Shown: piece after piece, positions 5,296 to 7,921 of the stretch | Layout of the letters: every line of letters starts with the position of its first letter | How positions within the stretch are numbered: the first letter of the stretch is position 1 | IMG/VR virus record: IMGVR_UViG_3300042317_001356 | Location: 1 to 21,943 of that record | DNA: 21,943 bases | Source: a virus | Strand: one strand, 5' to 3' | Program-made: the position numbers and the translations under genes | Notes under the pieces: generated by a model | What the model was told of the DNA's origin: nothing | Seen by the model: only the letters and a program-made list of their open reading frames with translations | The model's database searches: none

Positions 5296-5399
5296 CGGGA
5301 CACCCTCCAAGTCAGCGCCGCCAAAAAAAGCGCCGGACTCACCGCGCCAGCAAATTCCCAGGCATACCCGGCCAGCCTCAAAAAATCCGCCCCGCTCAT
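5292..5399 (-). CDS. 35-aa hydrophobic mini-protein
   Basis: This short ORF (MSGADFLRLAGYAWEF...LTWRVSR) is preceded by a strong GGAGGT Shine-Dalgarno 6 bases before its ATG. It overlaps its neighbours by ATGA on both sides (5292-5295 and 5396-5399). About 20 central residues are hydrophobic (Leu, Ala, Phe, Trp), enough for one membrane-spanning or membrane-lying helix with a basic C-terminus. It could also serve mainly as a leader for translational coupling of the excisionase-like protein. No family is recognised. The ribosome binding site and precise overlaps argue that it is translated. Confidence 0.5.
   Translation of the reverse strand: MSGADFLRLAGYAWEFAGAVSPALFLAALTWRVSR
5303..5308 (-). 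promoter_or_regulatory. Shine-Dalgarno GGAGGG deciding the start of the excisionase-like gene
   Basis: On the minus strand GGAGGG sits 7 bases before the ATG at 5295. It lies within the end of the 35-aa upstream ORF and fixes the start of the HTH protein well inside a longer open frame. Confidence 0.7.
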
Positions 5400-5542
5400 T
5401 TCTCCACCTCCACGGAAAAAGGCCGAAGCCCGAAAATTTCAAAAAACCTCGCCCGCGCTGCTGCCGGGCTCGAAGCCCGCACATAGTCACCGAAAGGCCC
5501 GGTAAACGGATCGACCGCCCGGCACAAAAAAAGGCGGCTCAT
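5396..5542 (-). CDS. 48-aa hypothetical protein
   Basis: This ORF encodes MSRLFLCRAVDPFTGPFGDY... and ends VEVEK. A GGAGG Shine-Dalgarno lies 7 bases before the ATG at 5542. Start and stop overlap the neighbours by ATGA (5539-5542 and 5396-5399). The sequence contains aromatic and basic residues and one Ala/Arg-rich helix (SPAAARARFFEIFG). It resembles tiny phage proteins of unknown role; no known domain is seen. Reality is supported by the ribosome binding site and coupling, not by homology. Confidence 0.55.
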   Translation of the reverse strand: MSRLFLCRAVDPFTGPFGDYVRASSPAAARARFFEIFGLRPFSVEVEK

Positions 5543-5706
5543 AGTGCCACCTCCGAGTTTTGATTATTAGGCCGAGCCTCACGGATGCGCCTCACGAGGA
5601 GCTGCCGCACGACCGCAGATTTTGGAATCATTTGTTCCCTCGCCATTCGCTCGATGATTTCGGCGACATCGCTTGGGACCGTGGTTTGGATTGGTTTTGC
5701 GCTCAT
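5539..5706 (-). CDS. Ribbon-helix-helix (CopG/Arc-like) regulator, first gene of the leftward operon
   Basis: The 55-aa protein has the compact RHH layout: an N-terminal strand 'PIQTTVP' (5-11), helix A 'SDVAEIIERMAREQ' (12-25), a turn 'MIPKS' (26-30), and helix B 'AVVRQLLVRRIREA' (31-44), then a polar tail. RHH proteins dimerise through the strand and insert it into the major groove, usually at paired palindromic half-sites. This is the promoter-proximal gene of the minus operon, directly beside a perfect inverted repeat (5720-5770) that would suit such a dimer, so autoregulation is likely. It is ATGA-coupled to the next gene. On the other side of the operator, facing away, is another RHH-like protein. 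The assignment rests on pattern; the regulatory role is inference. Confidence 0.75.
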   Translation of the reverse strand: MSAKPIQTTVPSDVAEIIERMAREQMIPKSAVVRQLLVRRIREARPNNQNSEVAL

Positions 5707-5719
5707 TGCGCCTCACGAT

Positions 5720-5770
5720 TTCTCACGAGATATCCAGAGAGTCAATAAAAAATTTGATATCTCGTGAGAA
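5720..5770. promoter_or_regulatory. Divergent control region with perfect 15-bp inverted repeat (putative RHH operator)
   Basis: TTCTCACGAGATATC at 5720-5734 is the exact reverse complement of GATATCTCGTGAGAA at 5756-5770, with a 21-bp AT-rich spacer. An extra direct copy of CTCACGA lies at 5712-5718. Each arm itself contains the palindrome GATATC. The region separates two divergent RHH genes (starts at 5706 and 5789), so both promoters must lie here or overlap it. Minus-strand TTGACT (5740-5745) and plus-strand TTGATA (5754-5759) and TATTAT (5773-5778) are possible promoter elements, but spacings are not ideal. The repeat is best read as an operator for one or both RHH proteins; a transcript hairpin is a weaker alternative. 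Confidence 0.75.
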
Positions 5771-5788
5771 TTTATTATCGTCCCTCAA

Positions 5789-6118
5789 ATGAGCGAAAAA
5801 AACCAAGACCGCTACGGCAAAGGGATGCGGTCCGTATCCACCACCGTAAACACCGAGACTTATGAGGAGATGGAACGCCTCGCCAAATCCGGCGGCCTCA
5901 AAATCACCGCATGGGCACGCCATGCCCTCATGGACACCGCCCGGCAAGGAGCTGTTTACGGAATAACCGATTTAAAAAAATACCACATAAATGCGCCCAA
6001 AACTTTAATGGCTGCCGAAGAGCCTGGGAATATATCCGAGCTGCCCGTGCCTGGGTCCTCACCAGCGAAAACCCCGACTCGCTACCAGAAGGGCACCGGG
6101 CGGAAATCTGCGAAATAA
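5789..6118 (+). CDS. Second RHH-like regulator, first gene of the rightward arm
   Basis: This 109-aa protein has an N-terminal region 'MRSVSTTVNTETYEEMERLAKSGGLKITAWARHALMDTAR' that fits an RHH fold: strand 'SVSTTVN', helix 'TETYEEMERLAKSG', turn 'GLKIT', helix 'AWARHALMDTAR'. It differs from the divergent RHH partner in having a longer, Pro-rich C-terminal tail (about 55-109, ending TGRKSAK). It is the first gene rightward of the palindromic operator. A simple model is that the two RHH proteins compete for, or share, the operator and set which arm is transcribed, a role like CI/Cro or Arc/Mnt. The ATG at 5789 lacks a clear Shine-Dalgarno. The fold call is by pattern only. Confidence 0.7.
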   Translation: MSEKNQDRYGKGMRSVSTTVNTETYEEMERLAKSGGLKITAWARHALMDTARQGAVYGITDLKKYHINAPKTLMAAEEPGNISELPVPGSSPAKTPTRYQKGTGRKSAK

Positions 6119-6122
6119 ACCC

Positions 6123-6437
6123 ATGAAAATCCTTATTCCCGGCTGCATCCTTATCGCCGCCTCATTCCTGCCCACCCTCAACGAATTTCCGCCACCCGGC
6201 ACGCTCCTCCCAGCCGAACGCACCTGGCACGCCGGTTTTGCCTTGATCCTCCTCGGCCTCGCCCAGGTATTCCGCGAGCAAATGCCCGCCACCCTCACAA
6301 AAAAGCAACGCCTCGCCCTCTCCTGCATGGCCGCCACCTTCATCGCCTGGATCGCCGCCCACGCCTACCAAGATTTGCAGCTCCTCATCACCCTGCCCCT
6401 TCTCGGTTACATTTATTTCTTCCCCGAGAAAAAATAA
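6123..6437 (+). CDS. Small integral membrane protein, unknown function
   Basis: This 104-aa protein has three hydrophobic segments suitable for membrane helices: about 3-17 (ILIPGCILIAASFLP), about 36-50 (HAGFALILLGLAQVF) and about 66-100 ('LSCMAATFIAWIAAHAYQDLQLLITLPLLGYIYFF', possibly two). A basic loop TKKQR precedes the last pair. It ends with charged residues EKK. It follows the RHH gene by 4 bases and precedes the lipoprotein by 4, so the three are probably cotranscribed. Size and topology would allow a holin-like or superinfection-exclusion role, but its position beside the regulator, far from virion genes, argues against a lysis function. I recognise no family. Confidence 0.65.
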   Translation: MKILIPGCILIAASFLPTLNEFPPPGTLLPAERTWHAGFALILLGLAQVFREQMPATLTKKQRLALSCMAATFIAWIAAHAYQDLQLLITLPLLGYIYFFPEKK

Positions 6438-6441
6438 AACC

Positions 6442-6861
6442 ATGCGCCAAGCCGCCTATTTCCTCGCTCTAGCCGCCTTCCTTACTGGATGCGCCAACCC
6501 TGAGCCCGAGACCTACGCACCCCGCGCCATCCCCGCAGCGCCCCCCATCGAGATCACCATCCACACCAGCCCACCCGGCGGCATTGTGGACTGGAACGGC
6601 AATGTTCTAGGCGCTGCCCCCGTCACTCTCAAAATCCGCCCCGACCTCATGGCATCAGGCCGCCCACGCTGGCCCGAGACAGGAGCCAGCGCCCACATCT
6701 TCCGCGCCCGCTGGCCCAACGGAGCCCGAGCCGCCGAGCTATTCATCCCCTCCGAAATGCCACCCCAGCACATCGCCATCATTTGCCCCGGCGCATCCAA
6801 TCCCCTCCTCGATTCCCTCCGAGCCGACGCCCGCACACTCACACAGAAAAAAACCCGCTGA
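6442..6861 (+). CDS. Lipoprotein with PEGA-like domain
   Basis: This 139-aa protein begins with a lipoprotein signal peptide: MRQAAYFLALAAFLTGC, with lipobox LTGC and Cys17 as the lipidation site, followed by Ala-Asn-Pro. After a Pro-rich linker, residues about 37-65 (ITIHTSPPGGIVDWNGNVLGAAPVTLKI) match the PEGA-type beta repeat ('I.S.P.GA.V..NG...G.TP..L'). The protein would be anchored to a cell-envelope membrane facing outward. In a prophage arm transcribed from the regulatory region, exported lipoproteins often alter the host surface or exclude other phages, but that is inference. It is 4 bases downstream of the membrane protein gene and is the last gene before a 199-bp gap. Confidence 0.75.
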   Translation: MRQAAYFLALAAFLTGCANPEPETYAPRAIPAAPPIEITIHTSPPGGIVDWNGNVLGAAPVTLKIRPDLMASGRPRWPETGASAHIFRARWPNGARAAELFIPSEMPPQHIAIICPGASNPLLDSLRADARTLTQKKTR

Positions 6862-7060: not shown

Positions 7061-7921
7061 ATGGAAAATACAACATACCAAGTCATAACCGACCGCCTCG
7101 TGGCCATGCTGGAGTCCGGCACAATCCCATGGCGCAAACCTTGGGCAGGAGCCACCGGCTTCCCCAAGAACCTCATCAGTAAAAAAGAGTATTCCGGGAT
7201 CAATTTCTGGATGCTTCACAGCGCCCCCTTCGGAAGCCCCTACTGGCTCACCTTCAAGCAAGCCAAAGAACTAGGCGGCACCGTCCGCAAAGGCGAAAAA
7301 GGAACCCCCGTCATCTTCACAAAAACCCTGCCCCCGAAAGTCGTCGATGTCCCCACCGACAACGGCGGGTCGGAAAAGATGATCGACGGCAAAAAACTCG
7401 GCGGGCGAATGCTCAAGTATTACACCGCCTTCAATGTCGAGCAATGCGACGGCCTCACCCTCCCCGACGACGGCCCACGCCACCAGCACGACCCCATTGC
7501 CAGCGCCGAAGCCATCCGCGAAGCCTACCACGGCCCCACCATCGCCCACGGCGGAGGCCGCGCCTGCTACAGTCCAGCCCTCGACCTGGTAAAAATGCCA
7601 GAGCCCGAGCGTTTCGAGCACCGGGAGGAATACTACAGCGTTCTCTTCCACGAACTCGCCCACAGCACCGGCCACAAGTCACGCCTCGCCCGCATCACCG
7701 AAACCGCCAATTTCGGCAGCGAAAACTACGGCAAGGAGGAACTCGTCGCCGAAATGGCCAGCGCCTACCTCTGCGGCCACGCCGGAATCGAACAAGCCAC
7801 CCTCGAAAACTCCGCCGCTTACTTGAAAGGCTGGATCGACGCCATCAAAGGCGACACCAAGCTCGCCATCAGCGCCGCCAGCGCCGCCACCAAAGCCGCC
7901 AACCTCATCCTCAATAAATAA
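7061..7921 (+). CDS. ardC: ArdC-type antirestriction protein (ssDNA-binding N-terminus plus zincin metallopeptidase)
   Basis: The 286-aa protein has both parts of ArdC. The N-terminal ssDNA-binding domain (about 1-130) shows 'TDRLVAMLESGTIPWRKPW', 'YSGINFWML', 'YWLTFKQAKELGGTVRKGEKGTPVIF' and 'YYTAFNVEQCDGL'. The C-terminal domain is a zincin metallopeptidase with HELAH (His197, Glu198, His201) in FHELAHSTGH and a downstream Glu in KEELVAEMASAYL (about 226-227) as third ligand. ArdC proteins on plasmids and phages protect incoming DNA from type I and related restriction; the peptidase role is less clear. Length matches the family and catalytic residues are intact. It is the first gene after the AT-rich leader and is preceded by hairpin copy 1 instead of a Shine-Dalgarno. 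It is transcribed away from the RHH operator. Confidence 0.93.
   Translation: MENTTYQVITDRLVAMLESGTIPWRKPWAGATGFPKNLISKKEYSGINFWMLHSAPFGSPYWLTFKQAKELGGTVRKGEKGTPVIFTKTLPPKVVDVPTDNGGSEKMIDGKKLGGRMLKYYTAFNVEQCDGLTLPDDGPRHQHDPIASAEAIREAYHGPTIAHGGGRACYSPALDLVKMPEPERFEHREEYYSVLFHELAHSTGHKSRLARITETANFGSENYGKEELVAEMASAYLCGHAGIEQATLENSAAYLKGWIDAIKGDTKLAISAASAATKAANLILNK

Follow-up and report, generated by a model that had tools for sequence, protein, structure and literature searches.

The immunity region of phage lambda is organized around CI, Cro and OR, with divergent HTH repressors, shared operators at both promoters and a cassette whose exchange changes specificity. Repressors of the RHH type are also part of phage immunity regions, as in the immI region of P22, where Mnt represses arc/ant and Arc inhibits mnt; immI is, nevertheless, an additional region, which controls the antirepressor ant and exists alongside the HTH C2/Cro switch (PMC2629481, PMC11016777). 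Likewise, AvtR (gp29) from AFV6 binds a stretch of around 100 nt that separates its own promoter from the promoter of gp30, another gene predicted to encode an RHH protein, and F55 keeps the lysogenic state of SSV1 (PMC5569661). Finally, the cro gene of phage A2 contains a -1 frameshift that is decoded in E. coli, giving a product 12 residues shorter, and that is apparently irrelevant in the natural host (PMC5009743).

Here we analyse a virus record of 21,943 bases, read at full length (the window), in which two divergent genes for RHH proteins lie between the xis/replication and the integrase arms. Comparison with its relatives suggests, with a probability of roughly 0.7, that a temperate Verrucomicrobiota phage uses this locus as its primary immunity (lysis-lysogeny) region, with two RHH repressors as its components. 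Among known phage immunity regions that contain an RHH pair, the one with Mnt/Arc from P22 comes closest, and we found no RHH-only, cassette-exchanged switch in the openly accessible literature.

Gene organization of the locus

The genes at the centre of the locus, as read from the sequence, are these (coordinates of the window, strand, feature):
5396-5542, minus: 48-aa gene, located 3' of A and overlapping it by 4 bp; the left boundary of the exchanged cassette
5539-5706, minus: protein A, a predicted RHH regulator of 55 aa that heads the leftward xis/replication arm; Cro seat
5789-6118, plus: protein B, a predicted RHH regulator of 109 aa that heads the rightward integrase arm; CI seat; the RHH part covers residues ca. 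13-56 and is followed by a low-complexity tail in the 0 frame

Genes A and B are divergent, with 82 bp between them. Leftward, A is followed by the 48-aa gene and by genes for an excisionase-like HTH_17 protein, an HTH_23 protein, an exonuclease, a replication initiator and DnaB; rightward, B is followed by genes for a small hydrophobic protein, a lipoprotein-like protein, ArdC and an integrase. A preliminary description of the window had placed two ORFs across the 82-bp region, the first genes of the replication and of the ardC/integrase arms, respectively, and both the ORFs and the gene content of the arms agree with it. The ArdC gene (7061-7921) appears in few related loci (e.g. L013, L014 and L019), and the right arm is variable here too. 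The lipoprotein-like protein (6442-6861), in turn, is conserved, contains an GIVDWNGNVLGAAP motif and is always encoded close to B; a surface or exclusion function is possible.

Proteins A and B are predicted RHH proteins

Both products had been described as RHH-like, with structure prediction proposed as a check, and the models retrieved RHH neighbours for each of them. Protein A matches Pfam RHH_1 with 20.6 bits (cut-off, 20.5; E 4.3e-4), and its AF2 model shows the short beta strand and two helices (12-25 and 29-44) of the family, with CopG as the top PDB match (probability 0.99). Protein B of the window alone does not match RHH_1; its AF2 model contains an N-terminal strand-like segment followed by helices 22-34 and 39-56, and its best PDB neighbours are RHH proteins (TacA, AtaR, PutA, AmrZ, CopG and Arc), with Z of 5.0-5.7 over 44-52 aligned residues, modest values that are expected for a 45-residue domain modelled as a monomer. 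Searches of PDB sequences with the A and B profiles retrieved nothing useful. Since the top structural matches of B agree, and since its homologues from the same locus in L015, L016 and L044 do match RHH_1, the fold comparisons and profiles indicate that A and B are both RHH proteins.

Candidate operators at both promoters

The intergenic region contains TTCTCACGAGATATC at 5720-5734 and its exact reverse complement at 5756-5770, with a 21-bp spacer, and the region has no perfect inverted repeat longer than this one. The preliminary description took it as one perfect 15-bp inverted-repeat operator; the exact repeat is indeed present, but we prefer to read its sequence as two near-palindromes of 10 bp, TCTN4AGA, one per promoter. 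Each arm contains its own near-palindrome, TCTNNNNAGA, and in the closest relative, L013 (from the same contig as L002/L003; A and B are 93% and 81% identical, respectively), the left arm has AAATC in place of the outer ATATC, with only the core TTCTCACGAGA being symmetric on both sides. We therefore discarded the long repeat as a single unit. The features of the region are (coordinates, strand, feature):
5717-5745, minus: putative A promoter, with TTGACT at 5745-5740 and a -10 GAAATC at 5722-5717 that is weak by E. coli standards
5720-5730, plus: candidate operator O_A, TTCTCACGAGA, with core TCTCACGAGA at 5721-5730; part of the perfect inverted repeat, with the class motif TCTN4AGA, in the A promoter zone and conserved in L013
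5731-5759, no strand: outer TATC/GATA inverted-repeat extensions and AT-rich 21-bp spacer; the AT-tract is kept in all classes (see below)
5754-5781, plus: putative B promoter, TTGATA-16-TATCGT, the sole promoter-like site in 5600-5900 (0.2 expected)
5760-5770, plus: candidate operator O_B, TCTCGTGAGAA, with core TCTCGTGAGA at 5760-5769; between the -35 and -10 of the B promoter

The window's intergenic region has two copies of TCTN4AGA, against 0.11 expected from shuffles, and no zero-mismatch copy of TCTCACGAGA occurs elsewhere in the 21.9-kb window. The presence of a site at each promoter, with a motif specific for the class, is consistent with the proposal that the divergent pair shares operators. 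The promoter scan of 5600-5900 did not report the putative A promoter; its TTGAC is found in many relatives from all classes, as seen by eye in their intergenic regions. The start codon of B lies ca. 8 bp past its putative promoter, with no Shine-Dalgarno seen, and the B mRNA would be leaderless or nearly so.

We also evaluated other elements of the region. Two extra half-sites had been proposed, CTCACGA at 5712-5718 and CTCACGAG at 5591-5598; both are there, but neither is well supported as an operator, because the first coincides in part with the likely Shine-Dalgarno of A (GTGAGG...ATG) and the second, within the coding part of A, differs from the core at two positions. A terminator or RNA hairpin was rejected, because there is no terminator-like site in 5600-5900 and the spacings differ in relatives. 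The exact 15-bp repeat with a spacer of 10-30 bp had no match in the viral contig collection.

Three classes of exchangeable cassettes

Relatives were gathered by searching with the lipoprotein (47 viral loci) and with the xis-like protein (25 viral loci). A divergent RHH pair occupies this position in 45/45 readable loci, including the window (41 extracted automatically, plus L023, L039, L051 and L068). A contig from a Verrucomicrobia MAG (L081) also contains a divergent RHH pair, in a close cassette, which suggests Verrucomicrobia as the host phylum. Comparison of the lipoprotein and of one B class with 50,697 GenBank phages did not yield any match, and thus no isolated or named phage relative.

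The strand of A defines three classes, QT (that of the window), ARLP and SIRLP, and A, B and the operator differ from class to class. The motif TCTN4AGA is found in every QT intergenic region and in no ARLP or SIRLP one, TGTCNGACA occurs in intergenic regions of the ARLP class only, and the operators of the SIRLP class are TGTTACA or TGTGATnCA. Among five cassettes with near-identical A (L024, L038, L041, L042 and L044), the N4 centres of TCTN4AGA differ (AATT vs. ATAC/GTAT), and specificity thus seems to be carried by the half-sites rather than by the centre. Copies or near-copies of the class's own operator are also found inside the A gene, with TCTCACGAGA at nt 22-31 in L021, L030 and L036, and TGTCNGACA at nt 144-152 in ARLP members; amino-acid constraint could explain them.

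Four relatives of the window (L009, L015, L016 and L019) show ca. 88-97% DNA identity to it in xis, the 48-aa gene and, where present, the integrase, whereas A, the operator and the RHH part of B are not alignable. Likewise, the 48-aa gene is 88-96% identical in several relatives with a different A. The exchanged cassette has its left edge at the stop of A and its right edge within the 3' end of B or the lipoprotein. On a tree of the integrase with 29 rows, at least 11 changes of class are needed (minimum, 2; shuffled mean, 13.7), which is close to random, and the nearest neighbours of the window come from all three classes. Because the flanks are kept while A, the operator and the RHH part of B are replaced, and because class changes are near random on the integrase tree, these loci behave as immunity cassettes; judging from the aligned loci, the exchangeable unit is composed of the sites, A and the DNA-binding part of B, and, as in lambda-type immunity, repressor and operators are exchanged together among related phages.

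This behaviour also bears on whether the phage might carry, in these genes, an RHH locus of the toxin-antitoxin or plasmid type (copy control, relaxosome). Such loci often contain RHH_1 and CopG proteins, and B shows a weak NikA-like match. Nevertheless, a type II toxin is inherited with its RHH antitoxin, whereas here the gene after A (5396-5542) stays unchanged when A is replaced by one of another class, and there is no toxin or relaxase among the scanned neighbours; we thus consider this origin very improbable.

Together with the conserved -1 frame of B described below, cassette exchange with matched operators is the strongest fact about the locus, and neither can be seen from one sequence. 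The cassettes constitute a natural set of repressors and operators, more than 40 in three classes, with sub-classes changing only the strand of B and the operators, and this set could reveal an RHH recognition code.

Both operators follow the strand of protein B in the SIRLP class

The sub-classes of SIRLP differ in their operators as follows:
B strand RNFSIR (L010, L015, L039, L050): two TGTTACA sites
B strand TQFSVR (L014, L023, L047, L049, L051): two TGTGATnCA sites
B strand VQFS[IV]R (L052-54, L081): TGTGCTACA and TGAATCACA

Within this class, therefore, both operator sites change together with the strand of B, while A is identical in L039 and in L023/L051 despite their different operators. 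The contrast is repeated in three backbone groups (L010/L015 vs. L014, L039 vs. L023, and L050 vs. L047/L049). Since both operators track the strand of B with A unchanged, in three backbone groups, B probably binds both sites, although part of the co-change could be due to linkage, because the N-terminus of B adjoins the intergenic region.

These same cassettes could be taken to mean that only B reads the operators, with A having another target or antagonizing B by forming heterodimers, and that there is no Cro-like competition for sites. However, the linkage of A with the operator and B is complete at the class level across the loci compared, and the strand of A resembles that of B within a class (IQTTV/VSTTV, ISIRLP/FSIRLP), so that a role for B alone appears rather unlikely to us, and we favour that both proteins act at the shared sites.

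A candidate main switch for lysis and lysogeny

We examined twelve related viral records of 33-43 kb, classed as 'linear', in which the absence of a repressor refers to the recorded sequence. No CI-type HTH repressor was found in them: HTH_3 gave nothing over the cut-off, and there was no S24 peptidase. Their recognisable RHH_1 matches are at this locus, apart from weak ones elsewhere, and hardly any copies of the operator motifs lie outside it in the related genomes scanned. The preliminary description had proposed an RHH pair in the place of the usual HTH repressors; RHH proteins do occupy both seats, and the twelve records agree with it, but the arrangement has precedents in Mnt/Arc from P22 and AvtR/gp30 from AFV6.

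The locus shares with lambda-type immunity the divergent repressors, the operators at both promoters and the exchange of cassettes, but its proteins are RHH instead of HTH, there is no S24 domain, and the related genomes scanned contain no distant OL-like copy of the operator. It shares with P22 immI a pair of RHH repressors in an immunity region, with divergent genes and the operators between them; unlike immI, which is secondary to an HTH switch, the pair is situated between the xis/replication and the integrase arms, with no HTH CI-type repressor found in the twelve relatives. In addition, the P22 papers (PMC2629481, PMC11016777) describe neither three-class exchange of cassettes nor a frameshifted B. 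AvtR/gp30 and F55 are similar in being viral RHH regulators, but they are from archaeal viruses, AvtR is a tandem-RHH monomer and F55 acts alone (PMC5569661).

A secondary module, as immI is in P22, would govern an accessory arm (ArdC, lipoprotein) instead of the lytic decision. The same fold in both seats, the divergent genes, and the presence of ArdC and of the predicted lipoprotein on the arm of B would fit such a module, although A heads the xis/replication arm, the twelve related records contain no other recognisable CI-type repressor, and no antirepressor gene was recognised among the scanned neighbours (xis-like, HTH, exonuclease, replication initiator, DnaB, ArdC and integrase genes were recognised, and some small neighbours are matchless). 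We consider this quite unlikely and favour a primary immunity region.

For such a region, we infer binding, repression, the direction of the switch and its bistability from the arrangement of genes and sites. Dimers of B would bind the palindromic sites at both promoters; at O_A, B would shut the leftward xis/replication arm, holding the lysogen, and at O_B it would control its own promoter. A would be a small antagonist in the Cro seat, repressing B when the lytic arm is on. The cassette of sites, A and the DNA-binding part of B would set immunity specificity and be swapped between related phages. If this is correct, another DNA-binding fold could support an immunity region like that of lambda, including the exchange of cassettes and the specificity of operators, and the locus would give a handle on lysogeny in Verrucomicrobiota.

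A conserved -1 frame in the B gene

The 3' part of B contains a protein-like motif in the -1 frame that is conserved in all three classes (e.g. LRWWILNSDNPELPPGWISEIHDLTSP, and RAWVLTSENPDSLPEGHRAEICEINP in the window), as seen in B genes from L009 to L062. The corresponding features of the window are:
5971-5980, plus: T TTA AAA / A AAA AAA, read in the 0 frame of B, a candidate site for -1 slippage; L013 also has A AAA AAA
5981-6126, plus: -1 frame extension of B, ending in RAWVLTSENPDSLPEGHRAEICEINP before the stop; the selection signal comes from the PPGW tails of relatives

The stop of this frame (TGA, 6124-6126) shares bases with the ATG of the following gene, at 6123. In 27 cassettes, an in-frame G GGA AAA or G GGA AAC precedes the -1 motif, and these heptamers are found in 13 of 21 non-redundant B linkers, against 0.89 expected by synonymous recoding, a comparison whose significance is only a guide due to shared ancestry. 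In PPGW tails, pN/pS is 0.48 (0.42-0.54) in the -1 frame vs. 1.17 (1.01-1.39) in the 0 frame, indicating purifying selection on the former; for the tail type of the window, the test gave a non-decisive 0.43 against 0.55. Moreover, the -1 frame is the only one of the six that is free of stops. On the other hand, there is no usable copy of G GGA AAM in the SIRLP class, L048 and L052, though they contain the -1 motif, and we found no consistent downstream stem-loop (z from -2.3 to +1.3). The C-terminal -1 peptides had no convincing match in Pfam, PHROGs or phages.

The -1 frame could also be an internal overlapping gene, and in L025, L034, L038 and L041 there is an ATG four codons before the motif. 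Most members, however, have no start codon in the -1 frame before the motif, which makes internal initiation unlikely, and the residue preceding the G GGA AAM heptamer varies (T, S, Q or E) while the heptamer itself is conserved. Frameshifting of B is slightly favoured for the family and is less probable for the window. As a second inference, B would be made as a short form and as a -1-frameshifted long form in many members, perhaps including the window, and the ratio of the two forms would then be a translational input into the lysis-lysogeny decision. Phage A2 cro also shows -1 frameshifting in a lysis-lysogeny gene (PMC5009743), but here the -1 frame carries a conserved C-terminus. The full combination, that is, an RHH/RHH pair as the only lysis-lysogeny switch of the lineage, interchangeable cassettes with matched operators, and a CI-like repressor in two isoforms by conserved -1 frameshifting, is a tentative proposal to which we give somewhat less than even odds.

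In L017, L018, L019, L024, L031 and L044, the -1 frame of B continues without stops into the frame of the lipoprotein. Some of the stop-free -1 frames pass through tandem repeats coding for QPPATSH, whose copy number varies between members.
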